Assembly (NCBI RefSeq): GCF_004001325.1
Contig: NZ_AP018722.1
Location: 1,860,001-1,924,000 of the forward strand
Length of the DNA stretch: 64,000 bases
Reading direction: 5' to 3'
From: Thiomicrorhabdus aquaedulcis
GTDB lineage: Bacteria > Pseudomonadota > Gammaproteobacteria > Thiomicrospirales > Thiomicrospiraceae
Shown: in pieces, positions 512 through 62,840 of the stretch
Position numbering within the stretch: position 1 is the stretch's first letter
Layout: each line of letters begins with the position of its first letter
Translations under genes and position numbers: made by a program
The notes under the pieces: model-generated
Told to the model about the DNA's origin: nothing
Seen by the model: the letters and a program-made list of their open reading frames with translations, nothing else
Database searches by the model: none

Positions 512-523
512 ACCAGGCCTGGT
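512..523. repeat. ACCAGGCCTGGT palindrome, copy 1
   Basis: Exact copy between the DsrE-like gene and the sodium channel gene, extended to TACCAGGCCTGGTA. Lies 29 bp from the next copy. Member of the family of 19 exact copies in this window. Confidence 0.9.
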
Positions 524-552
524 AGATTTGTTAAATTTTGTAAATTCAAATG

Positions 553-564
553 ACCAGGCCTGGT
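553..564. repeat. ACCAGGCCTGGT palindrome, copy 2
   Basis: Exact copy in the same convergent intergenic space as the copy at 512. The space has no other obvious terminator, so the paired copies may end transcription from one or both sides (inference). Confidence 0.9.
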
Positions 565-599
565 TTAACCGCTCTATTTAACCGCTCTAATTAACGACT

Positions 600-1466
600 C
601 TATTTAACCGCTTGTTGTGCCAAAAGCGCGTCCAGTTTTTGATGCAACGCCTGCAACTCTTGCTCAATGCGCATCTCGTAGTCCACGTGTTCTTGTTTTT
701 CTAGGTCGTCTTGATCGGCGGTTAATTTTTTATGCTCTTCGTCTAACACCTCAACCACAATCCCAATCATCATGTTAAAAAACACAAACGCCGAAAAGAA
801 AATAAACGTTAAATAATAAATCCAACTTAAGCCGTACATCGCCATGGTTTCGTACATTACGCTGGTCCAGCTTTCAAATGTGGCCACTCTAAACAGGGTG
901 AGCAACGACACACCCAAATCGCCCCACAGCACCGGATTAATGTTTTCAAACAACAAGTTTCCAATGACTGCGTACACATAAAAGATAATAAACATTAATA
1001 ACGCCACATACCCCATGCGCGGTAAGGCGCTGAGTAAAGCGCTTACCAACACGCGCAGCTCAGGAATAAACGAGATTAAACGCATGACCCTAAACAAACG
1101 CAACATTCGCGCAATAAGGGCGTATTGCGAATCGTCTAGCGGAATTAAACTCACCGCCACAATCACAAAGTCAAAAATATTCCAGCCCTTTTTAAAGAAG
1201 TCTTTTAGACGGTCTTCGGCCGCCATGCGAATGCTTATTTCTAGCAAAAAGAACAGGGTGACGGCGTAATCTAAACCCCATAAAATTTGTTCGGCCACCG
1301 GATGCATCTCGTAGGTGCGAATACCAATCATCAACGATGAAAAAATAATCACCCCAATCACAAACAGCTCAAATGCTTTGTTGTCACGAATAGTTTGAAA
1401 GCGATTTTGAAAGTCATTCCAGGTCATAAACACAATCTTCTTTTGTTTTTTAAATAAGAGGGGCAT
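600..1466 (-). CDS. Bacterial voltage-gated sodium channel (NaChBac/NavAb family)
   Basis: Single-domain six-helix cation channel of 288 residues, about the usual length of the family. The voltage sensor S4 is visible around residues 119-139, with Arg at 120, 123, 126 and 129 spaced every three residues. The pore loop holds TFESWTS (about 196-202); the Glu and Trp match the TLESW selectivity filter of NaChBac and NavAb, with Phe in place of Leu. The last 40 residues are a charged, heptad-like stretch that fits the C-terminal coiled coil that tetramerises these channels. A second start, MTWNDFQ at 1427, is as likely as the upstream Met because the first 13 residues are only basic. It probably admits sodium and may be tied to motility or ion balance. 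The gene stands alone between a DsrE-like gene and a ferredoxin gene. Confidence 0.9.
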   Translation of the reverse strand: MPLLFKKQKKIVFMTWNDFQNRFQTIRDNKAFELFVIGVIIFSSLMIGIRTYEMHPVAEQILWGLDYAVTLFFLLEISIRMAAEDRLKDFFKKGWNIFDFVIVAVSLIPLDDSQYALIARMLRLFRVMRLISFIPELRVLVSALLSALPRMGYVALLMFIIFYVYAVIGNLLFENINPVLWGDLGVSLLTLFRVATFESWTSVMYETMAMYGLSWIYYLTFIFFSAFVFFNMMIGIVVEVLDEEHKKLTADQDDLEKQEHVDYEMRIEQELQALHQKLDALLAQQAVK

Positions 1467-1543
1467 TTTACTGCAAAGCCCTTATCAATCGTTGTTAAAA
1501 TACACCACGTTAAATGACCCATCCAAAACAAAAAGGAAATACC

Positions 1544-1795
1544 ATGGCAAAGATTCAAGTCGTAGGACAAGGTGAGTGTGAATTTACCGGACAGTTTTCA
1601 CTGTTAGAAGCCTTAGATGAAAACGGTTTTGACATGCCCTACAGTTGCCGTGGTGGCAATTGCGGCGCGTGTACTGTGCGATTAATATCCGGAAAAGTAG
1701 AAGAAATTCAAAGTCCCGCTTACGATACGCGGGCGGGTGAGATTTTAACCTGCAGCGTAATTCCGTTAACCGATGTGGTTATTGAGTTAATTTAA
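1544..1795 (+). CDS. 2Fe-2S ferredoxin, plant/YfaE type
   Basis: Small electron carrier of 83 residues with the plant-type cluster signature C-x4-C-x2-C (SCRGGNCGAC) followed by the fourth Cys near the end (LTCS). The length is that of short YfaE-like ferredoxins, which in Escherichia coli serve ribonucleotide reductase; no nrd genes are near, so its partner is unknown. The start at 1544 is chosen because AAAAGGA sits about 7 bases upstream; an upstream in-frame ATG at 1514 would add ten poorly conserved residues and lacks a ribosome binding site. The gene ends just before a strong hairpin terminator. Confidence 0.88.
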   Translation: MAKIQVVGQGECEFTGQFSLLEALDENGFDMPYSCRGGNCGACTVRLISGKVEEIQSPAYDTRAGEILTCSVIPLTDVVIELI

Positions 1796-1807
1796 CTTAA
1801 ATCGGAT

Positions 1808-1843: not shown

Positions 1844-1876
1844 CAATATGGCCTATTAAGGCCAATAAACCATCTG

Positions 1877-1902: not shown

Positions 1903-1914
1903 TTTTGCATCATA

Positions 1915-4775: not shown

Positions 4776-4787
4776 ACCAGGCCTGGT
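4776..4787. repeat. ACCAGGCCTGGT palindrome, copy 3
   Basis: Exact copy downstream of pit, 27 bp from the next copy. The pit-phoR convergent space has two copies and a MITE but no other clear terminator. Confidence 0.9.
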
Positions 4788-4814
4788 TGTTTGCATACAT
4801 TCATCAACAACCTC

Positions 4815-4826
4815 ACCAGGCCTGGT
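4815..4826. repeat. ACCAGGCCTGGT palindrome, copy 4
   Basis: Exact copy, flanked as TCACCAGGCCTGGTCA, 30 bp before the short MITE at 4857. Confidence 0.9.
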
Positions 4827-4856: not shown

Positions 4857-4933
4857 GAGACCTTTGCACGAGTGGATGTACGGCCAAAAATTTTTCCTCA
4901 TTTTTTCTCGTACCCCACTCGTGCAAAGGTCTC
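4857..4933. mobile_element. Short MITE, 77 bp
   Basis: Bounded by perfect 18-bp inverted ends, GAGACCTTTGCACGAGTG and its complement. The middle is AT-rich and too short to code. The bases ATA lie on both sides and may be a target duplication. The ends match the longer elements at 7015 and 53505, so this looks like an internal-deletion derivative. The end sequence resembles those of IS5-group elements, from memory of the family. Confidence 0.85.
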
Positions 4934-6244: not shown

Positions 6245-6943
6245 TTAAACCTCAAGCGCCGAAAATCGGTAGCCGGTGCCGCGAATAGTTTGAATGTAAT
6301 CGGCGACATTAAGCGGTTCAAGAATTTTACGTAACCGACGAATATGAACGTCAACCGTGCGGTCTTCGACCACAATGTTTTCGCCCCAGACGTGATTAAG
6401 TAATTGCGTCCGTGAATAGACGCGGTTGGGATGAGACATAAAAAACTGAATCAACTTAAACTCAGTAGGGCCTAATTTAACTTCTTGTTGGTCTACTAAA
6501 AAACGGTGACTGGTTAAGTCTAAGTGCATTTTTCCGGCCACTAAGGCATCAACCGATTGAACGTCACTTTCTTGACGACGCAATATGGCTTTTACCCTAG
6601 CCACTAAGGCGCGCGGAGAAAATGGTTTAACCACGTAATCGTCTGCACCGGCTTCAAAGCCTTTAACCTGATCGTTTTCTTCACCGCGAGCGGTTAACAA
6701 AATAATGGGCACCGCACGCGTTTTGTCATTTTGTCTAATGCGTTGCGCCAGTGAAACACCGCTGATGCCGGGAAGCATCCAATCCAATAAAATCAGATCG
6801 GGTTGTTGCTCAAGCACCATTAACCAGGCCTGCTCAGCGTTCGCCGCTTCTATTACCGTGTATTCCGAAGATTCCAAGGTAAATCTAAGCATATCGCGAA
6901 TTGCAGCTTCGTCCTCAACAATCAAAATGGTGGGTTGTGACAT
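6245..6943 (-). CDS. phoB: Phosphate regulon response regulator PhoB
   Basis: OmpR/PhoB-type regulator of 232 residues. The receiver domain has the acidic pair EDE near residue 10, the phosphorylation site Asp54 in LLDWMLPG, the Thr in LLTARGEE and Lys in VVKPFSPR. The C-terminal winged helix holds RTVDVHIRRLRKIL and ends with the typical IRGTGYRF. It lies directly before phoR. It should bind the Pho boxes seen ahead of pstS and pit. An imperfect copy of the window's palindrome (6833-6844) falls in its coding sequence and encodes EQAWLM. Confidence 0.95.
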   Translation of the reverse strand: MSQPTILIVEDEAAIRDMLRFTLESSEYTVIEAANAEQAWLMVLEQQPDLILLDWMLPGISGVSLAQRIRQNDKTRAVPIILLTARGEENDQVKGFEAGADDYVVKPFSPRALVARVKAILRRQESDVQSVDALVAGKMHLDLTSHRFLVDQQEVKLGPTEFKLIQFFMSHPNRVYSRTQLLNHVWGENIVVEDRTVDVHIRRLRKILEPLNVADYIQTIRGTGYRFSALEV

Positions 6944-7014: not shown

Positions 7015-7173
7015 GAGACCTTTGCACGAGTGAATTCACGAATAAAAATGGTTAAAATTCACCCGATTTTTGTTGAAAAACTTGCGAATAGCCAGCTATT
7101 CACTGCATTTCCCGCCGCAATCAGGCAAATTTTCCCGCATTTTTCTTTCGCGCCTCACTCGTGCAAAGGTCTC
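7015..7173 (+). mobile_element. MITE, 159 bp, between phoU and phoB
   Basis: Inverted ends begin GAGACCTTTGCACGAGTGA on the left and end in the complement on the right. TAAT flanks both sides and fits a target-site duplication. The interior is closely similar to the element at 53505 in reverse orientation. Both can be read as a short peptide containing FTAF-AAIRQI, perhaps a relic of the parent element; no transposase is encoded. It splits phoU from phoB in an otherwise compact operon and may alter their linkage. A decayed end (CCTTTGCACGTC) lies just before it at about 6990. Confidence 0.88.
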
Positions 7174-7959: not shown

Positions 7960-7983
7960 GCGTTGACCAGGCCTGGTCAACGC
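7960..7983. repeat. 24-bp perfect palindrome with ACCAGGCCTGGT core (copy 5), between pstB and phoU
   Basis: Core at 7966-7977, extended symmetrically to GCGTTGACCAGG and its complement. It is inside the pst-pho transcript, so it could act as an internal hairpin that lowers phoU-phoBR output relative to pstCAB (inference). AT-rich runs flank it. Confidence 0.85.
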
Positions 7984-10534: not shown

Positions 10535-12826
10535 TTATAGCGAACCGTATTTGCGACGCATTCTTTGACGAACAACTTCGGCTAATGTGTTAAATACAAA
10601 GGTGAAAATAAACAACACCAGGCCTGATAAAAACAACACTCGATAATGCGAACTGGCGACTTCTGTTTCGGCCATTTCAACCGCTAAGTTGGCCGACAGG
10701 GTACGCAAGCCTTCAAACAGGTTGGTTTCCATAAGCGGCGTATTACCCGATGCCATCAACACAATCATGGTTTCACCCACGCCGCGTCCAAAGCCCAACA
10801 TAATGGCCGAAAAAATCCCAGGACTGGCGGTAGGCAACACTACGCCCACCAAAGTTTGCCAACCGCTTGCACCCAATGCCAAAGAAGCATTAACCAAGTA
10901 GCCCGGTACGTTATAAATAGCGTCCTCGGCCACTGAAAAGATGGTGGGAATTAATGCAAAGCCCATAGCAAAACCGATAACCATGGCGTTACGCTGATCA
11001 AAATCTATGCCTGCACTAACCGTTAACCATTGGCGCATATCACCTTGAAACACAGCGTTTTCAATAGGCACGCTCATAGTCATTGCAACCCAACCTAAGA
11101 ATAAAACAACCGGAATCATTAAGACTGCACGCTTGCCCACAGGGACTTTATGACGCAGGTTTTCGGGCAATTTTGACCACCCATAACCAAAGAGCAATAT
11201 CCCAATGGGCACTACAATAAACAGCGAGAAAAACCCGGGTAAATGCGCTTCCATATAAGGGGCTAACCACAGACCGGCTAAAAACCCTAAAATTACCGTA
11301 GGCAAGGCTTCAATAAGCTCAACCGATGGTTTAATCCACTGGCGAGTTTGTTTATCCATAAAAAACGCTGTAAAAATGGCCGCCAAAACAGCAATAGGCA
11401 CGGCAAACAACATTGAATATAAGGCCGCTTTTAACGTACCAAAGGTTAAAGGCGTTAATGAAAACTTGGGCTCAAAATCTGAGTTAGCCGAAGACGACTG
11501 CCACGTATAAGTAGGCTCGTCATAGCCTTCATACCATACCTTACCCCATAGGTTTGACATGGATACGTCAGGGTGCTCGTTTTCAATATGATACTGCACC
11601 AATTGACCTTCAGCAGTTTCAATCAATGCACCGTTAGCACGCGGCGTAATCGCTACAAAACCAGCACCACTAGAACTAACAAGCTCAGAGTACAAATGAC
11701 GCTCAGAGGTCGAATGAAATAAATCTAACTCTCCCTCTGCATTGGTTGTGGCAAATCCTTTACGCCCTTTCTCAATAGCAATGGTTTCAATGGGAGATTC
11801 GCTGACTTTAAAATTACGAATATTTTTTAAGCTGTAGTCGTTGTTTGCATCACGCACTGGAAACCACTGCATGACCTGACCTTGGCTTGTACCGACCATT
11901 AAAGAATAATCGCCTAGTAAAAAACGCACGGTGGTAACATTTTCTTGCTGCCCTGCAGGCAATAAATCAATTTGCTCAATGTATTCAGGGTTGCGTAAAT
12001 CACGTAGATTAAAATAATGCGCTTCACCGGTTTTGCTTACCGTATACAAATTGCGCATGTTGCCATCCAGTAACAGCCAATCAATTTGACCTTTAGCTTG
12101 AATGCTCACCGCGACATCTTGTTCAAGCGTTATGCCATCGGTCAACATCGACTCAATTTTTGAGAAACGTTTTAACTCAATAGATTCACTTGCCCCTGAT
12201 TGCACATAAGCTATTTGCAAGTCAGACGTTTTATCACGCAAGGCTAAATGCGTAATTTCCGAATCGCCCAACACAAGAGGCGTCTCACCATACGGATAAG
12301 TCATAACCGGCGTAATAGTACGCTGATCGTTAGGATACGTTACTTTGTAGCCATATTTAGCGACCAACACGCCCCCACCAGACAAGCCAAACGCTAAGAT
12401 GTTTTTAGCCTCGTCCACCACATTAAAGCTACTGATTGTTTGACCGCCTAATGGCAAATCTTCTACTAACGTAGTTTCACCCGTTGCGACTGTAAAGCCA
12501 AACATCTTACCCGAGGCACTAAAACGTACCGCAGATTCTTGATATTCATCCATAGCGTAGTAAAGTGTTTTTTCAGAAGCTCCACCGGGCACAGTGTACT
12601 GATTGGCTTTTTCTACAGAGGCTGATATAAATAATGGACCAACCACGTACACCAAAAAGAACATAATTAAAAGAACAGCAAAAATAACACTGATACCACC
12701 CACGGTTATTCCGACTGCGGCTATCGTATCTTTTAAATTTCTTCGTTTGATTCGCTTATCAAACAAAGGTCCTTTTAAGGCTTTGTCTAAAGCGGCTTGC
12801 GCGTTTGAGGAACGGGTTGTACTCAT
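10535..12826 (-). CDS. pstC: Phosphate ABC transporter permease PstC, long form
   Basis: Permease subunit of 763 residues. After a basic N-terminus comes a helix at about 35-68, then a large external domain (about 70-460) with repeated beta-rich units of a WD or propeller-like look, for example EGRKGFATTNAEGELDLF, and then the membrane domain (about 475-760) with the EAA-like loop YLVNASLALGASGWQTL and GRGVGETM. The pair with long PstA suggests that both extra domains meet outside the membrane and may act with PstS. First gene of the pstCAB-phoU-phoBR run. An imperfect palindrome copy (10617-10628) is in its 3' part. Confidence 0.92.
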   Translation of the reverse strand: MSTTRSSNAQAALDKALKGPLFDKRIKRRNLKDTIAAVGITVGGISVIFAVLLIMFFLVYVVGPLFISASVEKANQYTVPGGASEKTLYYAMDEYQESAVRFSASGKMFGFTVATGETTLVEDLPLGGQTISSFNVVDEAKNILAFGLSGGGVLVAKYGYKVTYPNDQRTITPVMTYPYGETPLVLGDSEITHLALRDKTSDLQIAYVQSGASESIELKRFSKIESMLTDGITLEQDVAVSIQAKGQIDWLLLDGNMRNLYTVSKTGEAHYFNLRDLRNPEYIEQIDLLPAGQQENVTTVRFLLGDYSLMVGTSQGQVMQWFPVRDANNDYSLKNIRNFKVSESPIETIAIEKGRKGFATTNAEGELDLFHSTSERHLYSELVSSSGAGFVAITPRANGALIETAEGQLVQYHIENEHPDVSMSNLWGKVWYEGYDEPTYTWQSSSANSDFEPKFSLTPLTFGTLKAALYSMLFAVPIAVLAAIFTAFFMDKQTRQWIKPSVELIEALPTVILGFLAGLWLAPYMEAHLPGFFSLFIVVPIGILLFGYGWSKLPENLRHKVPVGKRAVLMIPVVLFLGWVAMTMSVPIENAVFQGDMRQWLTVSAGIDFDQRNAMVIGFAMGFALIPTIFSVAEDAIYNVPGYLVNASLALGASGWQTLVGVVLPTASPGIFSAIMLGFGRGVGETMIVLMASGNTPLMETNLFEGLRTLSANLAVEMAETEVASSHYRVLFLSGLVLFIFTFVFNTLAEVVRQRMRRKYGSL

Positions 12827-14645: not shown

Positions 14646-14681
14646 AAAAAGCGTTTGACCAGGCCTGGTTAAACGCTTTTT
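14646..14681. terminator. Palindromic terminator with ACCAGGCCTGGT core (copy 6), between glnA and glnE
   Basis: Core at 14658-14669. The symmetry extends to AAAAAGCGTTT on the left and its complement on the right with one mismatched pair. A and T runs at the two ends suit termination from both convergent genes. Second hairpin after glnA within 30 bp. Confidence 0.8.
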
Positions 14682-17505: not shown

Positions 17506-17517
17506 ACCAGGCCTGGT
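17506..17517. repeat. ACCAGGCCTGGT palindrome, copy 7
   Basis: Exact copy between the methyltransferase gene and glnE; its last base is part of the methyltransferase stop codon. Confidence 0.9.
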
Positions 17518-18897: not shown

Positions 18898-20145
18898 ATG
18901 GAACAAGTACTTCAATTAAGCTATGCGCTTGATACCTTTTATTTCTTAATGTCCGGCGCGTTAGTCATGTGGATGGCCGCCGGATTTGCCATGCTCGAAG
19001 CCGGTTTGGTGCGCTCTAAGAACACCACCGAAATTTTAGCTAAAAACATCGGTTTGTTTGCCATTGCCTGTGTTATGTACATGTTGGTCGGTTACAACAT
19101 TATGTATCCAGCCGAAGCGATTAACAGCTTTATCCCAGGGTTAAGCTTTTTAATTGGTGGTGATAACGAAGTGGCCGCTGTAATTGCAGGTGGTGACGAT
19201 GCGCCTTATTACTCAGGCATGTCTGACTTCTTCTTTCAAGTTGTGTTTGTGGCAACCGCCATGTCCGTGGTGTCAGGTGCAGTGGCTGAACGTATGAAGT
19301 TGATGTCGTTTTTTGCCTTTGCTATCGTATTTACAGCGGTAATCTACCCGATGGCTGGTTTCTGGAAATGGGGCGGCGGGTTCTTAGACGAATTGGGCTT
19401 CCTTGACTTTGCAGGTTCTGGTCTAGTTCACATGGCGGGTGCTGCAGCGGCGTTAGCAGGTGTGTTATTGCTAGGAGCGCGTAAAGGTAAATACGGTCCA
19501 AACGGTGAGTCACGTGCAATTCCCGGTGCTAACCTACCGATGGCGACACTAGGAACGTTTATTTTATGGCTAGGTTGGTTTGGTTTTAACGGCGGCTCTG
19601 AGCTTAAGATTTCTAACGTTGAAGAAGCCAATGCAGTTGCTATGATTTTTGTAAACACCTTAATGGCCGCTGCAGCCGGTGTGATTGGTGCGCTGTTAGC
19701 CTCTAAATTAAAATTTGGTAAAGCCGACTTAACCATGATGCTAAACGGCGCATTAGCAGGCCTGGTAGCTATTACCGCAGAACCGCTAACCCCTACTGCA
19801 TTAGAAGCAACATTGATTGGTCTAGTTGCTGGTATCTTAGTGGTGTTTGTAATTTTAATCATGGATCGTAAGTTTAAAATTGATGATCCAGTGGGTGCGA
19901 TTTCAGTTCACGGTGTTATTGGTATCTTTGGTTTGATTGCGGTCACGTTCACAAATCCAGATTCAAGCTTAGTAGCGCAGTTAACCGGGATTGTCGTAAT
20001 CTTTACTTGGGTGTTCTTAACCAGCTTAATTTTGTGGTCAATCATCAAAGCAGTCATGGGAATTCGTGTTAGCGAAGAAGATGAATACACCGGTGTTGAT
20101 CAGTCAGAATGTGGTATGGAAGCGTACCCTGAGTTTAAAAAGTAA
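18898..20145 (+). CDS. amtB: Ammonium transporter AmtB
   Basis: Membrane ammonium channel of 415 residues with eleven hydrophobic helices. Family landmarks seen: FAMLEAGLVRSKN, the twin-His pore residues in GLVHMAGAAAAL and VHGVIGIFG, and the Phe-rich gate region. There is no separate signal peptide: the first residues run directly into helix 1. Cotranscribed with glnK. The C-terminal tail with SEEDEYTGVDQSECGMEAYP is the usual PII-responsive tail. A partial palindrome (AGGCCTGGT at 19758) is inside the gene. Confidence 0.96.
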   Translation: MEQVLQLSYALDTFYFLMSGALVMWMAAGFAMLEAGLVRSKNTTEILAKNIGLFAIACVMYMLVGYNIMYPAEAINSFIPGLSFLIGGDNEVAAVIAGGDDAPYYSGMSDFFFQVVFVATAMSVVSGAVAERMKLMSFFAFAIVFTAVIYPMAGFWKWGGGFLDELGFLDFAGSGLVHMAGAAAALAGVLLLGARKGKYGPNGESRAIPGANLPMATLGTFILWLGWFGFNGGSELKISNVEEANAVAMIFVNTLMAAAAGVIGALLASKLKFGKADLTMMLNGALAGLVAITAEPLTPTALEATLIGLVAGILVVFVILIMDRKFKIDDPVGAISVHGVIGIFGLIAVTFTNPDSSLVAQLTGIVVIFTWVFLTSLILWSIIKAVMGIRVSEEDEYTGVDQSECGMEAYPEFKK

Positions 20146-22352: not shown

Positions 22353-25120
22353 ATGGAAAAGCATTTCGACCCCAATATTATTGAAACTAAGTGGTACCAA
22401 ATCTGGGAAAAAAAGGGCTACTTTAAGCCGCAAAACAACCAGGCCAGCCCTTACAGCATTATGATTCCGCCGCCTAACGTGACCGGCAGTTTGCACATGG
22501 GACACGCGTTTCAAGACACCATTATGGACACCTTGATTCGCTACCACCGCATGAAAGGCGAAGACACTCTTTGGCAACCCGGTACCGACCACGCGGGCAT
22601 TGCCACGCAAATGGTGGTTGAACGTCAACTGGCCGCCAAAGACTTAAGCCGTCACGATGTAGGGCGCGAAAAGTTCATTGAAAAAGTCTGGGAATGGAAA
22701 GAAGAATCCGGTGGCACCATTACCAAACAATTGCGTCGCATGGGTGCGTCGGCCGATTGGAGTCGCGAACGTTTTACCATGGACGACGGTTTATCCAACG
22801 CGGTAAAAGAAGTCTTTGTACAGCTTTACAATGAAAACCTCATTTACCGTGGCAAGCGCCTTGTCAACTGGGACCCGGTACTGCACACCGCCGTGTCGGA
22901 CTTAGAAGTTATTTCAGAAGAAGAACAAGGCAATTTGTGGCACATGCGCTACCCACTGAGCGACGGCTCAGGGTTTTTGGTGGTGGCCACCACACGCCCC
23001 GAAACCATGTTGGGCGACCAAGCGGTTGCCGTGCATCCCGAAGACGAACGCTATGTGCATTTAATTGGTAAAACCATTACCTTGCCCTTAGTAGGTCGAG
23101 AAATCCCCATTATTGGCGACGATTATGTGGATAAAGACTTTGGTACCGGTTGCGTCAAAATCACCCCCGCTCACGATTTTAACGACTACGAAATGGGCAA
23201 ACGTCATAACCTACCCATGCTGAACATCTTAACGGTGGATGCGGCGATCAACGACCAAGCGCCTGAAAAATATCAAGGGCTTGATCGTTACGAAGCGCGC
23301 AAACAAATCGTAGCCGACTTAGACGCATTAGGCTTAATGGACGCCATTAAACCGCATACCTTAATGGTGCCACGCGGTGACCGTTCGCATGCAGTAATCG
23401 AACCCTTATTAACCGACCAATGGTACGTTGCGGTGCAAGAGTTGGCCAAACCCGCGATTGACGCGGTTAAAAATGGCGACATTGAGTTTGTGCCCAAAAA
23501 CTGGGAAAACACCTATTTTGAGTGGATGAACAACATTCAAGACTGGTGCATTTCACGCCAAATTTGGTGGGGACACCGAATTCCCGCTTGGTACGATAAC
23601 GACGGTAAAATTTACGTTGGTCGCAGCGAAGCGGAAGTACGTGCCCAGCATCAATTAAGCCCAGACCATATTCTTAAACAAGACGAAGACGTGTTAGACA
23701 CTTGGTTTAGCTCGGCGTTATGGACGTTTTCGACCCTAGGCTGGCCCGAAAAAACGCCTGAACTTGCCAAGTTTCACCCCACATCTGTCTTAGTGACTGG
23801 CTTTGACATCATCTTTTTCTGGGTTGCCAGAATGATTATGATGGGACTAAAATTTACCGGCGAAGTGCCGTTTAAACAAGTTTACGTACACGGCTTAGTG
23901 CGCGATGGCGAAGGCCAAAAAATGTCAAAATCCAAGGGCAACGTGCTTGACCCACTGGATTTAATTGACGGCATTGAGCTGGAAGAACTGGTTAAAAAGC
24001 GCACCTACGGCATGATGCAACCCGAAAAAGCCGCGCAAATTGAAAAAGCCACCCGCAAACAATTTGCCGATGGTATCCCTGCATTTGGTACCGACGCGTT
24101 GCGCTTTACCTTTGCCTCATTGGCCTCAACCGGTCGCGACATTCGGTTTGATTTAAACCGCGCCGAAGGTTATCGCAACTTTTGCAACAAGCTGTGGAAC
24201 GCCACGCGCTATGTGCTAATGAACACCGAGGGCTTTGACACCGGCGTAGACGATAAACAACCCATAGAACTCTCTTTAGCCGACCGCTGGATTAACGCAC
24301 GCTTGCAAGACGTTATGAGTGAAGTCAATCGTCACTTTGACGGCTATCGTTTTGATTTAGCCGCCACGGTGTTGTATGAATTTACCTGGAACGAATATTG
24401 CGACTGGTACTTAGAACTGGCCAAACCGGTATTGAACAAAGACGCCAGCGACGCCGCCAAACGAGGCACTCGTAAAACTTTGGTGGGTGTACTAGAACAA
24501 CTGTTACGTTTACTGCACCCTATTATTCCGTTTATTACCGAAGAAGCGTGGCAAGCGGTTGCTCCTTTAGCGGGCAAACACAATGCCACCATCATGCTTG
24601 AACCTTACCCACAAGCCAATTCAGTGCTTATGGACGCGCCGGCGGTATTGGAGCTGGAATGGGTTAAACAATTTATTGTCAGTGTGCGTAAAATTCGCTC
24701 AGAAATGGACATTGCTCCCAGCAAAGCCCTGCCTGTTTTACTCAGCTGTTTAAACGACAATGACCAGGCCTGGTTAAACAACAATCACGTTTCACTGACC
24801 ACTTTAGCCAAACTGGCCAGCATTGATGTGGTTGAAGATGAAAGCAGTGTTCCCGAATCGGCTGTGGCGCTGGTGGGTGAAATGAAAATTTACATTCCAA
24901 TGGCCGGCTTAATCGACAAAGAAGCTGAACTTGGGCGTTTAACCAAAGAAATTGGCAAGCTCGTAGGCGAAATTCAACGCCTAAGCGGCAAGCTTAACAA
25001 CGATGGTTTTATTGCCAAAGCGCCCGAAGCGGTCGTGGCGGTAGAGCGCAAAAAACTCAACGATTATGAAATCGCCCTTAACAACCTAGAGGCACAGTAT
25101 GAAAAATGCTTCAACTTTAA
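22353..25120 (+). CDS. valS: Valyl-tRNA synthetase (stop lost by an apparent one-base deletion)
   Basis: Charges tRNA-Val with valine and edits mischarged Thr. Class I landmarks: the HIGH motif as HMGH in [14 protein letters not shown] near residue 50, the editing domain around 200-340, KMSKSKGN near 530, the anticodon domain, and a C-terminal coiled coil from about 850. As written, the frame runs on into the next gene to give 1155 residues. Alignment by eye to Escherichia coli ValRS puts the natural end at YEKCFNF. One extra T in the TTT run at 25116-25118 gives TTT-TAA exactly there. A true fusion is therefore unlikely. Gives about 922 residues. Confidence 0.93.
24763..24774. repeat. ACCAGGCCTGGT palindrome, copy 8, inside valS
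   Basis: Exact copy in the coding sequence near the start of the C-terminal region, read as D-Q-A-W-L. It falls in a hydrophilic, poorly conserved stretch. Confidence 0.9.
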
Positions 25121-25820
25121 GCGTTCACAACGCGCACTGTCGGTAACGGCATTGCTTATGTCTATGAGCCTAAGTGCCCTACCAGGCCTGGCGAGTGCCG
25201 CAGAAGGCAGTTATAAAAACTACGTTACCGATGCTGTGGATGTGCCAGTGCGTAAAGGCGCTGATTATAAGTTTAAAATTTCGCACATGCTAAAATCGGG
25301 CACGCCCGTGACCATTCTAACCGTGGACAGCGCTGGCTGGGCAAATGTGGAATTTATGAGAAGTGGTAAAACAGTCACCGGCTGGATGCCCACCAGTGTA
25401 TTGCAAAATGAGCCCGTGGCCAAAGAACGCCTGAGTGCACAAATGGCAAAAACAACGGCCGTTGAACAAAAACACAACGCACTATTACAAGAACTAGACA
25501 CGCTTAAAGCGCGTTTTGACAGCACTGAGCTAGAACTGACCGCCATTAAACAAGAAAACTTTGAACTCACTCAAGAGTTAACTCGTTTAAAATCCATTTC
25601 GAGCAACGCACTCGAACTGGATGAAGAAAATCAAACCATGAAAAAACGGTTGTCGGCATTTGAAACTGACAACGCTATTATGAAAGAACAAATTGACGCG
25701 TCAAACGACGCTATTCAACGCCAATGGTTTTTAACCGGTGGCGGCGTGTTGTTGCTAGGTTTACTGTTAGGACGTTTCTTCCGCCTGCCTAATAAGCGTA
25801 AAAAATGGGACAGCTTTTAG
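25099..25820 (+). CDS. SH3-domain membrane protein, TIGR04211/YgiM-like (frameshifted start)
   Basis: With one extra T in the run at 25116-25118 an ATG at 25099, preceded by AGAGG, opens a normal signal peptide ([15 protein letters not shown], then a hydrophobic core and ALPGLASA) joined to the rest of the frame. The mature part has a bacterial SH3 domain (about 40-105, with [20 protein letters not shown] and GWANVEF), a long coiled coil (about 110-200) and a C-terminal helix [15 protein letters not shown] with a basic tail. That layout is that of YgiM-type proteins. It would overlap the valS end by about 20 bp. Function unknown. Partial palindrome copy at 25181-25192. Confidence 0.8.
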
Positions 25821-26808: not shown

Positions 26809-27737
26809 TTAGCCACGCGGATGATGCTGCTGGTGCAAGCTAGCTAAGCGGTCTTTGGCCACATGGGTATAAATTTGAGTCGAAGACAAATCACTGTGAC
26901 CCAACAACAGTTGCACTGTGCGTAAATCAGCGCCGTGGTTAATTAAATGGGTGGCAAAGCATGTCGCAGAGTGTGCGGCGACAAATTTGCATCAATACCG
27001 GCTTTTATCGCTAATTGACGAATACGGTGCCACAGCGTTTGCCGCGTCATCGTCCGTCCAATCCGGGAAATAAACACACTGTTTACCCATGCACCTTTTA
27101 ACAAAACTGGCCGAGCATCTCTCATATAACGCTCTAACCATTCAATGGCAAACTCACCCAGTGGCACAATACGCTCTTTATTGCCCTTGCCGGTAACGCG
27201 AACCAAACCGGCCGATAAATTAACCTGTTCAAACGGCAACGTGACTGTTTCAGATACCCGAAGTCCGGTGGCGTACATGAGTTCTAAAATAGCGCGGTCA
27301 CGCAATCCTAACGCTGTGGTCACGTCCGGTGCTGCCAACAACATCACAACCTGCTGCTCACTTAAAGTACTGGGCAAAGTTTGCGCACGTTTGGGTGATT
27401 TAATCAGCGCGGTTGGATCAATAATAAACTGTTGATGAACACAACCCCATTGATAAAATCGTTTTAAAGTCGACAATAAGCGAGCGTTGCTTTTAGCATC
27501 GCGGCCAACGGTGTGTAAATGATGCATAAACGCTTCAAGAGTAGATGCGCTAGGCGCTTGTAAATCAGGTACGTCAACGCTTATCAACCAGGCCTGGTAG
27601 AGTTCTAAATCGCGGCGGTAGGCCATAAGTGTATTGTGACTTAAGCCTTCTGAAAGCTGTAAAAATTCAATAAATTGATGTACTAAGGTGGGCGAATTAG
27701 ACAAGGGGAGTGACTCAGGCGAATTTGTATTTTGCAT
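26809..27737 (-). CDS. xerD: Tyrosine recombinase XerD (one-base frameshift near the 3' end)
   Basis: Site-specific recombinase that resolves chromosome dimers at dif with XerC. The N-terminal SAM-like domain is at about 15-105 ([20 protein letters not shown]), the catalytic domain follows with Arg in ATGLRVSE. As written the frame stops after [13 protein letters not shown]. Adding one A to the AAA run at 26956-26958 (a T on the coding strand) gives [34 protein letters not shown] and an end at 26809, with the His-Arg-His-Tyr catalytic set complete. A sequence error is more likely than a pseudogene. A -10-like TATAAT lies 13 bases before the ATG. Confidence 0.9.
27587..27598. repeat. ACCAGGCCTGGT palindrome, copy 9, inside xerD
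   Basis: Exact copy near the 5' end of the gene, read on the coding strand as Y-Q-A-W-L. Falls in the variable surface of the N-terminal domain. Confidence 0.9.
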
Positions 27738-30037: not shown

Positions 30038-30075
30038 AAAAAACCGTTTGACCAGGCCTGGTCAAACGGTTTTTT
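30038..30075. terminator. 38-bp perfect palindrome with ACCAGGCCTGGT core (copy 10), after ffh
   Basis: Core at 30051-30062; arms extend without mismatch to AAAAAACCGTTTG and its complement. A6 and T6 at the ends make it a strong terminator in both directions. It separates ffh from the rpsP promoter. Confidence 0.9.
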
Positions 30076-37430: not shown

Positions 37431-37466
37431 AAAATCGTTTTAACCAGGCCTGGTTAAAACGATTTT
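37431..37466. terminator. 36-bp perfect palindrome with ACCAGGCCTGGT core (copy 11)
   Basis: Core at 37443-37454; arms extend without mismatch to AAAATCGTTTTA and its complement. It lies between fadL and the hybrid kinase gene on the minus strand and is suited to terminate fadL. Confidence 0.85.
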
Positions 37467-38919: not shown

Positions 38920-38931
38920 ACCAGGCCTGGT
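38920..38931. repeat. ACCAGGCCTGGT palindrome, copy 12
   Basis: Exact copy directly after the radA stop codon, extended to TGACCAGGCCTGGTCA. Likely acts as a terminator hairpin for radA or is merely placed there. Confidence 0.9.
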
Positions 38932-43088: not shown

Positions 43089-43841
43089 TTACACCGGATT
43101 TGCAATGTCCACAAAATGACATTGCAACCCAAATTTGTCTGCTAAATGCTCGCCCAACGCTTTTATCCCCAAACGCTCGGTGGCATGATGTCCAGCGGCA
43201 AAGTAGTGCACACCGCCCTCTTTGGCCAAATGGGTGGTTTGCTCCGAAACTTCGCCGCTAATGTAAACATCGGCCTGCCACGCAATGGCCTGATCAATGT
43301 AATTTTGCGCCCCACCACTGCACCAAGCGACTGTTTGAACGGTATTTTTTCCGCCGGACAGATGCAACACCGGGCGCTGTAAACTGTTTGAAACCAGCGT
43401 TGCAAAGGCATCAATAGAACACGCCTTTGGTAAACGCCCTAATCTCACTAAACTGTCTAAACCAACCAGGCCTGGTGTGATGTCTTGCAAACCCCATAAT
43501 TGACCCAGCAACACGTTATTGCCTAACACCGCATGTTGATCAAGCGGTAAATGATATGCCAGTAAATTGATGTCGTGCGCCAGCAAAGCCTTAACACGTT
43601 TTTGTTTTATGCCCACAATTTGCGCGGGTTCGTTTTTCCAAAAATATCCGTGGTGCACCAAAACAGCATCAGCTTGTAACGCAATCGCCGCGTCAATCAA
43701 TGCCTGACACGCGGTTACACCGGTTACGATGGTTTTAATGGTGTCCCGACCTTCAATTTGCAAACCGTTGGGCGCATAGTCATTAAAATTGGCTATGTTT
43801 AAATAGTCGTTTAAATAAGCCACCAACTCAGTACGCTGCAT
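43089..43841 (-). CDS. Nif3-like dinuclear metal centre protein
   Basis: Cytoplasmic protein of 250 residues of the NIF3/YbgI/DUF34 family. Metal-binding His residues are seen in VLVHHGYFW near residue 62, in AYHLPLDQH near 95, and in YFAAGHHATE near 217. The fold is known but the role is unsettled; GTP cyclohydrolase I type 2 is a misleading label sometimes used. The ATG at 43841 is chosen because AAAAGGA is 7 bases away; an upstream GTG is too close. Confidence 0.9.
   Translation of the reverse strand: MQRTELVAYLNDYLNIANFNDYAPNGLQIEGRDTIKTIVTGVTACQALIDAAIALQADAVLVHHGYFWKNEPAQIVGIKQKRVKALLAHDINLLAYHLPLDQHAVLGNNVLLGQLWGLQDITPGLVGLDSLVRLGRLPKACSIDAFATLVSNSLQRPVLHLSGGKNTVQTVAWCSGGAQNYIDQAIAWQADVYISGEVSEQTTHLAKEGGVHYFAAGHHATERLGIKALGEHLADKFGLQCHFVDIANPV
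43465..43476. repeat. ACCAGGCCTGGT palindrome, copy 13, inside the Nif3-like gene
   Basis: Exact copy, read on the coding strand as T-P-G-L-V, another frame than in valS or xerD. Confidence 0.9.
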
Positions 43842-43922: not shown

Positions 43923-43957
43923 AAAGCCACCAGACTTTTACCAGGCCTGGTGGCTTT
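43923..43957 (-). terminator. hisD terminator built on ACCAGGCCTGGT (copy 14 at 43940-43951)
   Basis: Arms AAAGCCACCAG and its complement; the right arm takes in half of the palindrome. On the minus strand a T run follows. Lies just after the hisD stop. Confidence 0.8.
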
Positions 43958-45987: not shown

Positions 45988-47265
<1,278 letters not shown>

Positions 47266-47572: not shown

Positions 47573-48343
47573 TTAGTGACGTATTTTAACGCCTTTATGC
47601 AATAAAATCAGATTTATCGCCGAGATGACCAGCAAGAAAGCCACCGTCACCGCCAAGCTTAAATAAACCGACACGTCTGATTGTTGAAAAAAACCATATC
47701 GAAACCCGTCTACCATGTAAAAAAACGGATTAAAGTGTGAAATTTTTTGCCATACCTCGGGCAAAGCGTGAATCGAATAAAATACTCCGCTTAAAAAGGT
47801 TAAAGGCATAATAATAAAATTTTGAAACGCCGCTAGATGATCGTATTTTTCAGACACAATGCCCGCCAACATACCCAATCCGCCCATCATTGCAGCACTT
47901 AAGACGGCAAACACCACAATCCAAATAGGGGCATGCCAAGTTAAATCAAACCATACAATGCCTACCAGCAAAATACCCAAGCCCACTGCCACACCACGCA
48001 CCACAGACGCGGCAATAAACGCAACGTACAGCTCCAGTGGCGAAATAGGACTTAACAATACAAAGGTTAAATTACCGTGCATTTTTGATTGGATTAGACT
48101 CGATGAACTATTGGAAAACGCGTTTTGCAAAATAGCCATCATCACCAGGCCTGGTATTAAAAACTGACTGTAACTCAAGCCGCTAAACACATCTATTTGA
48201 CTGTTAATAACCGTGCCAAACACCAACAAATACAATAAGGTGGCAACCACTGGCGCAAAAATAGTTTGCACCGCAACCGAATAAAATCGGCGCACTTCTT
48301 TAATAAACAGCGCCCAACAACCGGTAAAATTAAAGGCCATCAT
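47573..48343 (-). CDS. yadH: ABC-2 type transporter permease (YadH-like)
   Basis: Six-helix export permease of 256 residues with the ABC-2 pattern (SYSQFLIPGLVMMAILQNAFSN near residue 58 and MPLTFLSGVFYSIHALP near 175). It overlaps the ATPase gene by 4 bp. Substrate unknown; names are based on resemblance to YadGH of Escherichia coli. It is inserted between mlaB and ibaG, where other gammaproteobacteria usually have nothing. Confidence 0.88.
   Translation of the reverse strand: MMAFNFTGCWALFIKEVRRFYSVAVQTIFAPVVATLLYLLVFGTVINSQIDVFSGLSYSQFLIPGLVMMAILQNAFSNSSSSLIQSKMHGNLTFVLLSPISPLELYVAFIAASVVRGVAVGLGILLVGIVWFDLTWHAPIWIVVFAVLSAAMMGGLGMLAGIVSEKYDHLAAFQNFIIMPLTFLSGVFYSIHALPEVWQKISHFNPFFYMVDGFRYGFFQQSDVSVYLSLAVTVAFLLVISAINLILLHKGVKIRH
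48144..48155. repeat. ACCAGGCCTGGT palindrome, copy 15, inside yadH
   Basis: Exact copy, read on the coding strand as I-P-G-L-V-M, at a place where Pro-Gly-Leu is part of the common ABC-2 motif. Confidence 0.9.
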
Positions 48344-49266
48344 AAGACTGCCTCGCGGGTTAAATCCATAAAGACTTCTTCAAGAGACGCATCACGTGTG
48401 CTCACATCACACACCGCCATGCCACTTTGATGCAACCAACCCAACATATCGGTCATAGAATGCTGTTTTTCAAGCCTAAAGACATACCCGTTAGACTCTT
48501 GCTCAACCAAACGCTCGGCCAGCGGTGCTATTAAACTTTCAGAACGCTGCTCAACCGATACTCTAATGTAGCGATATGGGTGTTTTGACAACAGCGCACT
48601 GGTTTTATCCAACGCTTTAATGGCACCGTTTTGCATAATCGCTACTTTATCGCACAGCGCTTCAGCTTCGTCTAAATAATGCGTGGTTAAAATAATGGTG
48701 TGCCCTTGTTGATGCAACTCTTTAGCAAACGCCCACAAGGTACGGCGCAAATCGACGTCTACGCCGGCCGTGGGTTCATCCAGCACCAATACGCGTGGCT
48801 TATGCACCAAAGCCATTGCAATTAATACTCGACGTTTCATGCCGCCCGATAACTGACTGGTGTTGGCATTCGCTTTGTCGCTCAGTGCCAAACGTTCCAG
48901 TAATTCGTTAATCCACTGGGTTTGTTGTGCGCCTTTAATGCCAAAATAACCCGACTGGAGTTGCAACAACTCCTTAATGGAAAAAAACGGGTCTGAAATT
49001 AACTCTTGCGGCACCAAACCTAAAAACCGTCGGGTTTGACGATACTCTTTAATGACATCACACCCTTTTACACGAATGTGACCACTGCTGGGAATAACCA
49101 GGCCTGACATGGCATTAATGAGGGTCGATTTTCCGGCACCATTAGGTCCTAGCAAACCAAAAAAAGCCCCCTCTTCAACATTAAAGGTAATGCCATTAAG
49201 CGCTGAAAATTGTCCATATTGTTTTGTGACCGCATAAAACTCAACCGCGGGGTTAGAGTGCATCAT
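48340..49266 (-). CDS. yadG: ABC transporter ATP-binding protein (YadG-like)
   Basis: ATPase of 308 residues with Walker A GPNGAGKST, signature LSGGMKRR, Walker B VLVLDEPTAGVD and switch TTHYLDEA, then a C-terminal extension of about 90 residues usual for ABC-2 exporters. Pairs with the overlapping permease gene. Partial palindrome at 49097-49108. Confidence 0.9.
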   Translation of the reverse strand: MMHSNPAVEFYAVTKQYGQFSALNGITFNVEEGAFFGLLGPNGAGKSTLINAMSGLVIPSSGHIRVKGCDVIKEYRQTRRFLGLVPQELISDPFFSIKELLQLQSGYFGIKGAQQTQWINELLERLALSDKANANTSQLSGGMKRRVLIAMALVHKPRVLVLDEPTAGVDVDLRRTLWAFAKELHQQGHTIILTTHYLDEAEALCDKVAIMQNGAIKALDKTSALLSKHPYRYIRVSVEQRSESLIAPLAERLVEQESNGYVFRLEKQHSMTDMLGWLHQSGMAVCDVSTRDASLEEVFMDLTREAVL

Positions 49267-49317: not shown

Positions 49318-49453
49318 GGAACCTTTGCACAAGTGAACGTACGCAAAAGATTGACAGAACAACAATCCACTCGCGCAACAACGTATGGTAAAAATGTGCT
49401 GTTTAAAAACTGACCAGGCCTGGTTGCTTTATTTTAAGACCTTTGCCCGACTG
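49318..49453 (+). repeat. Two decayed MITE ends in the yadG-mlaB space
   Basis: GGAACCTTTGCACAAGTG at 49318 and AAGACCTTTGCCCGACTG at 49436 both resemble the left MITE end, in the same orientation, so they are separate remnants rather than one element. A palindrome copy lies between them. The 234-bp space carries no gene. Confidence 0.5.
49413..49424. repeat. ACCAGGCCTGGT palindrome, copy 16
   Basis: Exact copy between mlaB and yadG, after the decayed MITE end at 49318. Confidence 0.9.
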
Positions 49454-56165: not shown

Positions 56166-56738
56166 ATGTCGCATTTAAAAACGCTTTTAACACTGGCTCT
56201 TATAAGCTATTTAGCCTATGCGCCCAAAGCACTGGCCGTAGAAACCCCTAAACCTTCCAATGTCCCCGACGAACAACAGCCCGTTCACATTTTGGCCGAC
56301 CGCCTAGAAGTCGATGAAGGCAAAGGCAAAAGCATTTACTCTGGCCACGTGATCATCACCCAAGGAAGCATGACCTTAACCGGTGAAACCATTACGGTAA
56401 TCCACCCCAATAACCAAGTACAAACCATTGTTTCGGTGGGCAAACCCTCTACGTTTAAACGCTTTAATCCAACTGACCAGGCCTGGTTAAAAGGTCACGC
56501 CAATCAAATTGACTATCACGCCATAAAAAACACCGTCTTATTACAAGGCAATGCACAGGTTGAACAACCTGGCGACCATATTATTAGTGGTCCACAATTA
56601 TTTTACGACATGGCTCAACAAACCCTAAAAGCGCAAAGTACCGCGCAAGAAAAACAACGTATTTCGGTGACTATTAACCCGGCAAGCGCACCAGAAGGCA
56701 GCGCAAAACCACCAGCAACACAAACGCCACAACCTTAA
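56166..56738 (+). CDS. lptA: LPS periplasmic bridge protein LptA
   Basis: 190 residues: signal peptide (about 1-24, ending ALAVE), then the OstA-like jellyroll (ILADRLEVDEGKGKSIYSGHVIITQGSMTLTGETI) and a Pro/Ala/Gln-rich tail. Forms the periplasmic filament that carries LPS to LptD. A palindrome copy is in the middle of the gene. Confidence 0.9.
   Translation: MSHLKTLLTLALISYLAYAPKALAVETPKPSNVPDEQQPVHILADRLEVDEGKGKSIYSGHVIITQGSMTLTGETITVIHPNNQVQTIVSVGKPSTFKRFNPTDQAWLKGHANQIDYHAIKNTVLLQGNAQVEQPGDHIISGPQLFYDMAQQTLKAQSTAQEKQRISVTINPASAPEGSAKPPATQTPQP
56476..56487. repeat. ACCAGGCCTGGT palindrome, copy 17, inside lptA
   Basis: Exact copy read as D-Q-A-W-L, the same peptide as in valS. Confidence 0.9.
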
Positions 56739-60431: not shown

Positions 60432-60485
60432 GCCGTTGTCTTGAGTGGTTATTTAAAACCAAAACGGATCTATTGTGAACATTTA

Positions 60486-60497
60486 ACCAGGCCTGGT
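60486..60497. repeat. ACCAGGCCTGGT palindrome, copy 18
   Basis: Exact copy, first part of a ~55-bp stretch repeated at 62829-62884 in direct orientation on the other side of the GGDEF-EAL gene. Confidence 0.9.
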
Positions 60498-60512
60498 CAA
60501 AGCCCTAAACCC

Positions 60513-60541
60513 AAAAGCCACTCAATTGAGTGGCTTTTTAT
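60513..60541. terminator. Bidirectional terminator after OmpA-like gene and GGDEF-EAL gene
   Basis: AAAAGCCACTCAA and its complement with A and T tracts. Overlaps the stop codon of the minus-strand GGDEF-EAL gene. The same stem is at 62847. Confidence 0.85.
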
Positions 60542-62681
60542 GCGCTTAATAGCCCCACAAAGGCTTTTAATTGTAAAAGCGACAATGGCTTACTAAAAAA
60601 ATAACCTTGAAACTGCCTACAACCAAAAAGCAATAACTGATTAAACTGCTCCTCTGTTTCAACGCCCTCGGCTATGACCCCAATCCCAAAGTTTTTACTT
60701 AAATCGACAATGGCTTTAACCATAATAGAATCCGACTCATCGGTCATTAAATCCCTAATAAAAGATTGGTCGATTTTAATTTCGTTTACCGGCAGACGCT
60801 TTAAATAGCTTAACGAAGAATAACCGGTACCGAAGTCATCCAGCGAAATATGAATACCCAGCTCTTTAAGCACGTGCAATTTATGAATCGTATCGACAAC
60901 ATCGTTTAACAATACACTTTCTGTAATTTCAAGTTTAAGCTGGGCAGGCTTTAGCCCCGCTTGTTTTACAATTTCACAGACTTGTTCAATAAAATTAGGT
61001 TGCCACAGTTGTTTGGCGCTGATGTTGACACTGACGGTCATATCTTTAAGTATTGGATGACTTTGCCAACTCGTTATTTGCTGGCAAGCATGCGTTAACA
61101 CCCATATACCAAGCGGTAAAATCAACCCTGTTTCCTCGGCCATCGGAATAAAGTCCGAGGGTGAAATGTACTCGACCAACGCCAAATCCTTGTTTGGACT
61201 TGGCACGGGCCAACGAATTAAGGCCTCTAAGCCAATAATGCGTCGTTCGTCATTAAACTGTGGCTGGTAAAAAAGCTCAAATTGATTTTGACCGATGGCC
61301 TTACGAAAATTATTTTGTAACTGTTGAGCCGCCCAAAGGTCTTGTTGCATGCTGGGGTCAAATATCACCGTTTGGTTACGACCCTCGGTTTTAGCACGAT
61401 ACAGTGCTAAATCTGCCAACTTTAACAGCTCATCCACCTCGGTAAAATTGCGGCCGTTAAAAATGACCACCCCAATACTGGCGGTTAACTGATGCTCAAC
61501 ATGAATGCCTTTTTCAACCCCTGGTATATTAGACGTTAAAAAAAACGGCTTAGACAAAGCCATGTGAACGTGTTTTGCAATATCAAATACTTGCTGAGCG
61601 GCAGCCGAATGATTTAAATCAAGCTTATTAATCACCATGACAAATTCATCACCACCAAAACGCGCAATGGTATTTTCTTGAACAATGGCCGCTTTTAATC
61701 GATGTGCCACCTCAACCAACAATAAATCGCCAAATGCATGACCTTGTGTGTCGTTAAGCATTTTAAAATTATCTAAATCCAAAAACATCACCGCCGCAAC
61801 AGAATGATGTTGTTGGTTATAAATAATAGTACGCTCTAGGCATTGGTGTAACAAACGACGGTTAGGCAAAGAGGTTAAAGGGTCATAAAAAGCAAGTTGT
61901 TCAATTTGATGTTTATCGTATTTTTGTTGCGTAATGTCCTGCGCCGCGCCAATCATTCTAAGCGGTTTGCCCAAGGCGTCCCGTTCAACCACCTCACCCC
62001 GATCAAGCACCCAAATAACCTGACCATCGGGGCGATGAATCCTAAACTCAGCACAATATTTTGAATCGCCTTCAAGACAGTTTTTAAGTGCCGTTTGCAC
62101 CTTGGCACGGTCCTCAACCAAAATACACGCTTCAAAATCATCAAAGCTAGACTGACTTTCATTTAAACCCGTTAAGGTGAACCAATACTGGTTGTGAAAC
62201 ACTTTTCCGGCATTAATATCCCAATCCCAAACACCTTCTTGTGTTGTTTCAAGCACGTAGTTTAGGCGTTTTTCATTAAACTCGGCTTGAATTTTAAGCC
62301 GCTTAATGTCGGTGATATCTTTGGCAATCACCAAAATATTCACCTCTTCATCGGCATTTTTAAAGGGCACTTTGTACGATAAAAAATGCCTAACCTCGCC
62401 GGTTTTGGCGTCGGTTGAATCTTCGTAAACCACTTCGGCTTTAAAAGAGCGCATCACCGCTTGAACATTTTCTAAGAAAAAATTGGACTGCTCTTGATTG
62501 CCGGTAAAATAGCCATCGTCATGTCCGAGCATTTTATCTGGGGTTGTATTGTAGAGGGTTGCACAGGCTTGATTGGCGTAAATAAATTTACCGTGCCAAT
62601 TTTTACAATAATTGGGTCTGTATTGGTGTTGATGATTAGCTCCAAAAAGGCAACTCTTTCTTGCTCTGTCATTGGCTTCAT
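60538..62681 (-). CDS. PAS-GGDEF-EAL cyclic-di-GMP protein (one-base frameshift near start)
   Basis: Predicted c-di-GMP enzyme of about 715 residues with two PAS domains (about 10-125 and 130-255), GGDEF (about 265-435) and EAL (about 450-705). The GGDEF site is RFGGDEFV; the upstream inhibitory-site position reads VQEN, not RxxD. EAL residues seem complete: EALIRW, NISAKQL, EITES, DDFGTGYSSLSYL, KIDQSF and EGVET, so it may be mainly a phosphodiesterase. The N-terminus needs one extra T in the run at 62600-62604 (A on the coding strand): this joins MKPMTEQERVAFLELIINTN to KNWHGKFIYANQACATLY, a normal PAS start. Confidence 0.88.
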
Positions 62682-62828
62682 AACACAACACTCTTGCTTT
62701 AATGTTTAGTATTGTAGTCTAGCCTAAACGCTTTTAAAAGAGTGCTACATCAAACAAAAACTCAATTCTAAATAAGTCTAAATAAGAACAAAATAACGAA
62801 AATAACACTATTTTTAAACCTGACTTTG

Positions 62829-62840
62829 ACCAGGCCTGGT
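62829..62840. repeat. ACCAGGCCTGGT palindrome, copy 19
   Basis: Exact copy, extended to TTTGACCAGGCCTGGTCAAA. Seven bases later a 46-bp perfect palindrome begins. Confidence 0.9.

Follow-up and report, generated by a model that had tools for sequence, protein, structure and literature searches.

A 12-letter palindrome, ACCAGGCCTGGT, occurs 19 times in a 64,000-nucleotide stretch of the Thiomicrorhabdus aquaedulcis chromosome (assembly GCF_004001325.1, contig NZ_AP018722.1, positions 1,860,001 to 1,924,000), which is called the window below. We propose that it is a genome-wide watermark of self DNA, of the DNA uptake sequence (DUS) type, and put the chance of this at about even. The claim is that the word works like an uptake sequence; membership of the DUS or of the uptake signal sequences (USS) is not established. 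The whole genome (2,537,035 bases in two contigs) contained 718 exact copies, compared with about 0.09 expected, and the reversed pattern used as a control was found 0 times. A count near expectation, or absence outside the window, was thus contradicted. Among the candidate roles, the uptake signal suggested in the initial annotation was the best supported, by dialects in related species, placement at gene ends, maintenance at the DNA level and a sparser second contig; the missing canonical PilQ secretin counted against it.

All 19 exact copies in the window were recovered at the coordinates first given for them. Composition alone predicted 0.0024 exact copies in 64 kb, in agreement with the earlier statement that a given 12-mer should occur there far less than once, and shuffled sequences also gave far lower numbers: sites with at most two mismatches numbered 26, whereas 100 dinucleotide shuffles averaged 1.45 such sites and never exceeded 5. 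Seven near copies were present, each within an open reading frame (ORF). Five of the six listed previously stood (10617, 25181, 33669, 46100, and 49097), the one placed at 6833 starts at 6823, and the one at 19755 had been overlooked. The assignment of 14 exact copies to positions between genes held against ORFs of at least 150 aa, the size class checked, and the five copies in genes, read as QAW or PGLV, were confirmed in valS, a xerD-like frame, lptA, a Nif3-like gene, and an ABC permease gene. No Rfam family was found in the window at the gathering score. The sites are given below by window position, with no strand assigned.

512..523, exact ACCAGGCCTGGT, intergenic
553..564, exact ACCAGGCCTGGT, intergenic
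4776..4787, exact ACCAGGCCTGGT, intergenic, convergent
4815..4826, exact ACCAGGCCTGGT, intergenic, convergent
6823..6834, near copy ACCAGGCCTGCT, in ORF
7966..7977, exact ACCAGGCCTGGT, intergenic; the palindrome runs 6 bp further on each side
10617..10628, near copy ACCAGGCCTGAT, in ORF
14658..14669, exact ACCAGGCCTGGT, convergent intergenic, adjoining glnE; by eye, within a longer inverted repeat with one mismatch abutting the motif
17506..17517, exact ACCAGGCCTGGT, intergenic, though overlapping the final base of the adjacent ORF
19755..19766, near copy AGCAGGCCTGGT, in ORF
24763..24774, exact ACCAGGCCTGGT, in valS, DQAWL, residue 804
25181..25192, near copy ACCAGGCCTGGC, in valS
27587..27598, exact ACCAGGCCTGGT, in the xerD-like frame, YQAWL; the match is under the XerD cut-off, the frame being shortened
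30051..30062, exact ACCAGGCCTGGT, intergenic; centre of a perfect palindrome with 13 bp more on each side
33669..33680, near copy ACCAGGCCTGCT, in ORF
37443..37454, exact ACCAGGCCTGGT, intergenic; perfect palindrome with 12 bp more on each side
38920..38931, exact ACCAGGCCTGGT, intergenic
43465..43476, exact ACCAGGCCTGGT, in the Nif3-like gene, TPGLV
43940..43951, exact ACCAGGCCTGGT, intergenic; by eye, one arm is common to a terminator-like inverted repeat
46100..46111, near copy ACCAGGCCTGCT, in ORF
48144..48155, exact ACCAGGCCTGGT, in the ABC permease gene (yadH in the initial annotation), IPGLV
49097..49108, near copy ACCAGGCCTGAC, in ORF
49413..49424, exact ACCAGGCCTGGT, intergenic
56476..56487, exact ACCAGGCCTGGT, in lptA, DQAWL
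60486..60497, exact ACCAGGCCTGGT, intergenic, convergent
62829..62840, exact ACCAGGCCTGGT, intergenic

The anatomy of the motif was studied in a 444-kb sample of the chromosome (the window plus 19 stretches of 20 kb), which held 129 exact and 41 one-mismatch copies. The mismatch lay at positions 1, 2, 11, or 12 in 38 of the 41 and in the 8-bp core CAGGCCTG in 3, and this concentration at the ends indicated a unit with a strict core and softer palindromic ends, approximately TRACCAGGCCTGGTYA. The flank preference was symmetric, with T at -2 in 74% of flanks. A perfect palindrome with symmetric flanks and such a strict core is also what a protein site would have. The main rival to the watermark is accordingly an array for a dimeric DNA-binding protein, nucleoid-organizing or a very global regulator, which would occupy a 16-bp palindrome about every 3.4 kb throughout the genome and be held by selection on many sites; we regard it as possible but rather doubtful, and the evidence on it is taken up below. 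Beyond about 16 bp, little sequence was kept around the copies. A mobile family, or one resembling repetitive extragenic palindromes, could account for many copies across the genome, but this scarcity of conserved sequence and the several copies that hold their position across genera leave it hardly credible.

Placement relative to genes was assessed in the 444-kb sample with a home-made gene caller (87.7% coding). Of the exact copies, 66 were intergenic, 58 lay wholly in genes and 5 straddled a gene end; the intergenic share was higher in the window, which is itself part of the sample. The density was 1.21 per kb between genes and 0.149 per kb in coding sequence, an 8-fold difference, and by spacer it was 3.5 per kb in convergent, 0.99 in tandem and 0.79 in divergent ones. 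Copies lay nearer to 3' than to 5' gene ends (median distance 65 vs. 120 bp). A perfect palindromic extension of at least 5 bp per side was found around 13 of 66 intergenic copies and 0 of 63 others. Frequency at gene ends and terminators, one of the marks of uptake sequences, was therefore found for ACCAGGCCTGGT. The same figures would suit a transcription terminator whose preferred hairpin stem has no further role. However, 58 of the 129 copies are inside genes, some at codons shared by several species, and a stem need not be fixed in sequence, which makes this explanation quite improbable. The low density in divergent spacers, where promoters are located, also argues against the binding array. 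Imperfect copies of the core were distributed differently (56 coding, 5 intergenic, 1 straddling; Fisher P 8e-10). The coding copies were split 6, 27, and 25 over the three frames, so that one peptide cannot account for all of them.

The second contig (96.8 kb, presumed to be a plasmid) carried only 5 copies, or 0.052 per kb (P about 1e-7). The chromosome (2,440 kb) had, by subtraction, 713 copies, or 0.292 per kb, and the second contig was 5.7-fold poorer; the binding array would be consistent with this as well. An 80-kb stretch of G036, a genome tied by sequence matches to Thiomicrospira sp. WB1, was picked for an apparent gap in sites and had 1 copy; a TrwC relaxase and an integrase-core protein were among 10 ORFs identified there.

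Among the genomes compared, the word was frequent only in relatives. Those that could be named through glnE belonged to Thiomicrorhabdus and Thiomicrospira, and G004, G008, G010, G017, and G028 were tied by sequence matches to named metagenome bins. In the order-wide sample, 27 of 62 family genomes, all of one family, had 84–718 exact copies, a count that leaves the dialects outside: the window's genus contributed 10 of its 32 genomes, genus g5 all 9, g6 7 of 11, and g3 its only one. None of the nine genomes of g2, g4, and g28 was a bearer (0–3 copies each), and 21 genomes of other families had 0 or 1 copy each. A dialect-agnostic pattern was matched 127–864 times in the whole genomes of 18 of the 32 species of the window's genus and 1–59 times in the other 14 (controls 0–20); the pattern is loose, and unrelated, often GC-rich genomes gave up to 237 matches with controls up to 57. 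In the lacking species, the excess over the reversed control resembles that of unrelated families, so erosion remnants are not claimed for them.

Species poor in exact ACCAGGCCTGGT carried other words with the same GGCC centre. These were drawn from word lists of pooled stretches of 25 genomes (15–444 kb each):

G008, dialect word AGCAGGCCTGCT
G005, dialect word AACAGGCCTG
G018 and G025, the relaxed form CAGGCCTG
G020, asymmetric dialect word AACAGGCCGGGT
G023, dialect word ACCGGCCGGT
G035, two words together

Related dialects in related species, another mark of uptake sequences, were thus represented by five GGCC-centred words. No word was seen in nine of the 25 pooled genomes (G003, G011, G012, G013, G014, G019, G024, G026, and G031), where G012 was sampled over 15 kb only and the word lists of G014 and G019 were crowded by long local repeats. 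In G019, a stretch of about 10 kb (locus L074, 5689-15624) contained the word GCAGCTAAGA 97 times and represents an array or a repetitive gene.

In a tree built from GlnE of 30 among the 37 family genomes, the bearing/lacking label needed 3 changes, compared with a shuffled mean of 9.0; the dialects were set on this tree by eye, and the computed clustering concerns the label. The three changes fell on G003, on G012 with G017 and G028, and on a clade of seven. Three bearing genomes from other genera branched outside the window's genus, so that losses are the simplest reading. The tree is without G001, G002, G007, G022, G029, G032, and G034, including the lacking genera g2 and g4, and neither g28 nor the g6 species that lack exact ACCAGGCCTGGT are on it. 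As lacking genera were left off, the whole family needs more than three changes, and the preference for losses applies to the genomes on the tree. The binding array has difficulty here: sister species with different words in hundreds of copies, one of them asymmetric, and lineages from which the whole set is missing would be hard to obtain by site-by-site selection without a drive.

Individual sites were kept in place. In the miaB-ybeY-pilin region of 18 genomes, 61 dialect-agnostic sites were found in 10 bearing regions and 0 in 8 lacking ones. The PPGL(V/L) residues of YbeY were encoded with ACCAGGCCTGGT in four of seven bearing species (G000, G015, G016, and G030), with the species' own word ACCCGGCCTGTT in G020 and with a near copy, ACCAGGCCTGCT, in G005; G023, with PMGLV, had none. 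Seven lacking species retained PPGL through seven different codings, the motif being in none. The same residues with differing codings showed that the site is maintained at the DNA level. At the DQAWL site of ValS, ACCAGGCCTGGT followed by TA was found in 8 of 11 bearing genomes from four genera, one more was off by one base and two were without it; the motif was in 0 of 9 lacking genomes, where the residues differ. A histidine-kinase site was exact in G000, G016, G030, and G033, the last from another genus, and eight of the ten bearing genomes, and none of the six lacking ones, retained its core.

The valS gene of the window (22353-25820) is a single 1155-aa ORF with a C-terminal match to an SH3-anchor domain (TIGR04211, residues 957-1151), apparently a fusion. 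In the xerD-like frame (26943-27737, minus strand), the match runs from position 2 to 241 of a model of 290 residues, and the rest of the protein was found just downstream in another frame, which could be a true frameshift or an assembly error.

Orthologous coding sites of the ACC dialect were compared in the glnE and pilin regions, in comparisons that overlap and represent few independent loci. Between ACC-dialect genomes the exact word was found in 48 of 56 comparisons, and between ACC-dialect and lacking genomes in 0 of 102, with identical residues in 8 of these. Over 29 orthologous spacers, bearing genomes shared the presence of a site in 57 pairs, whereas 5000 permutations, in which spacer length and class were ignored, gave 18.1 (largest 38); lacking genomes had 0 motifs wherever those spacers were sampled. 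Within a dialect, and across genera as well, sites thus stay where they are, and conservation of some positions across genera would equally be expected of the binding array. Rewriting in place was seen in YbeY and some spacers but not generally.

For the watermark, the following mechanism may be envisaged. A trans-acting reader on the uptake machinery would recognize, perhaps as a dimer, the core CAGGCCTG together with the flanking bases (about T-R-ACCAGGCCTGGT-Y-A). Motif-bearing DNA would be preferentially taken up and recombined, and sites would keep being restored. A shift in the specificity of the reader would lead to rewriting of the sites and hence to dialects, and with its loss the sites would decay. 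Hundreds of sites differ or vanish together, which makes such a reader likely; natural transformation, biased uptake and what serves as the reader are inferred, a minor pilin being guessed from analogous systems. Biased uptake with recombination would explain the drive, the dialects, the tolerance within genes, the placement at gene ends and the scarcity on the second contig.

The check for DNA-uptake genes gave a positive result. Among the 37 family genomes, at E<=0.001, ComEC was found in 33, ComEA in 32 (20 above the curated cut-off) and DprA in 37 (36 above the cut-off). The competence genes comEC, comEA, and dprA that uptake sequences call for were therefore present. Among the nearly complete lacking genomes, only G031 was without comEC. 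In the window's genome, a cluster of four pilins lies beside a large secretin, taken by its arrangement as a type II secretion system, and there are also a Tad-like secretin with an ATPase and, apart from these, another pilin cluster accompanied by a two-component pair. None of these secretin or pilin systems was observed to distinguish bearers from lacking species. A conserved pilin cluster (L128, 8177-16567; orthologous loci L214-L230) consists of a small pilin, a histidine kinase, a response regulator, and several large minor pilins; assembly genes were not seen in its vicinity, and in G014 and G031 it is remodelled and without the two-component pair. This cluster is a possible home of the putative DNA receptor. 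As a separator it failed, its two main protein groups being in 18 and 19 of 19 genomes among the matches listed.

Several observations weigh against the uptake reading. The type IV pilus with its PilQ secretin is the usual pore for DNA uptake. None of the 37 family genomes had a canonical PilQ above the TIGR02515 cut-off, whereas 18 of 21 genomes of other families did; other secretins were present, the usual PilQ machinery was not. The uptake machinery would consequently be atypical, and biased uptake leaves the missing PilQ unexplained; its absence suits the binding array. The three competence genes do not separate bearing from lacking species, being in most of both. Its full palindromy also sets the motif apart from the usual DUS and USS. 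Rewriting in place was not general either: genomes of other dialects were often without a word at ACC-dialect coding sites, a dialect-agnostic word being found there in 0 of 10 cases in G023, 0 of 5 in G008, 4 of 15 in G020, and 9 of 31 in G005, G018, and G025; G035 had one in 5 of 5. Finally, spacing was not clearly regular, and the spacing test proposed initially gave weak regularity only, with a coefficient of variation of 0.905 for the first 100 sites (P 0.18) and underdispersed 20-kb counts (P 0.018).

A methylation site had also been suggested in the initial annotation. In a mechanism of this kind, an orphan methyltransferase or a biased mismatch repair would recognize and regenerate the palindrome, similar to HIP1, the highly iterated palindrome of cyanobacteria, which the available text of Elhai (2015) links to orphan methyltransferases; the motif does include CCAGG/CCTGG and AGGCCT. 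However, eight bearing genomes (G010, G015, G018, G020, G021, G025, G027, and G033; G010 is only 86% complete) had no match at E<=0.001 to PF00145 or PF01555, the two families searched, with other methyltransferase classes and Vsr outside the search. Neither the distribution of PF00145 (C5 methyltransferases) nor that of PF01555 (beta-class N6/N4 methyltransferases) follows the motif, so both were rejected as cognate enzymes. The window's genome itself has one PF00145 gene. A cognate methyltransferase is therefore disfavoured, and we consider this explanation improbable.

Three elements resembling miniature inverted-repeat transposable elements were noticed in the window (4857-4933, 7015-7173, and 53505-53662; 77, 159, and 158 bp), with terminal inverted repeats GAGACCTTTGCACGAGT. 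Their end word CAAAGGTCTC had 39 occurrences among the matches listed for the 444 kb of chromosome, mostly, not all, at such ends and often in facing pairs.

In the literature searched, no earlier mention of ACCAGGCCTGGT was found. The matches listed for ACCAGGCCTG with "bacteria" look unrelated by title, and the family names combined with uptake, competence, pilus, or palindrome gave nothing relevant among the matches listed, judged by title and the start of the abstract, so that an earlier report is possible. In the available text of a Chi survey, a term search returned none of the family names and no CAGGCC.

If the watermark reading is true, this free-living, sulfur-oxidizing family, with its palindromic dialects, its species lacking the word and its sites held in place, would provide a separate natural experiment on the origin, switching and death of such watermarks, and would point to an uptake route without PilQ. 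If the motif is a binding array instead, some 700 sites would be bound by a DNA-binding protein that has yet to be described and that differs in specificity from one sister species to another. To our knowledge, uptake sequences are known only from Pasteurellaceae and Neisseriaceae. The Thiomicrospira/Thiomicrorhabdus group may be a third family with a self-DNA watermark, the first with a perfect palindrome and a dimeric receptor, without a PilQ pilus, in which five or more dialects and, it appears, several losses occurred within one family; this wider proposal, in all its parts, falls somewhat short of an even chance.

Comparison with known systems showed likeness and difference. HIP1 (GCGATCGC), to which the motif was initially likened, is also a highly iterated palindrome and is low in some members of its lineage, as far as the available sources go. 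ACCAGGCCTGGT is a different sequence, enriched at gene ends, with several dialects and no linked C5 or beta-class methyltransferase found. The USS of Pasteurellaceae is likewise an over-represented short word with dialects, and the predicted receptor there is a minor pilin, according to the parts of the literature available. Its sequence differs, and the motif here is palindromic.

From the DUS of Neisseriaceae, ACCAGGCCTGGT differs in being a perfect palindrome, of another sequence, in a family without canonical PilQ, and in number, with 718 copies here and about 1900 10-mers in the meningococcus in the text available. The available text of Frye (2013) states that in every species DUS with one mismatch outnumber the exact ones, although in K. 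oralis the count rises by only 21% when a single mismatch is permitted; for the 12-mer ACCAGGCCTGGT, it rises by 32% (41 to 129). According to the same text, DUS dialects agree with phylogeny and DUS are associated with terminators, and in S. muelleri 1294 DUS occurrences are in overlapping dyad-symmetric pairs, for which a possible dimeric reader was noted. The two systems have in common hundreds to thousands of copies of a 10–12-mer, dialects, the association with terminators, members without the word and one genome with two dialects (here G035), and the dyad-symmetric pairs of S. muelleri are a precedent for the palindrome (Frye, 2013).

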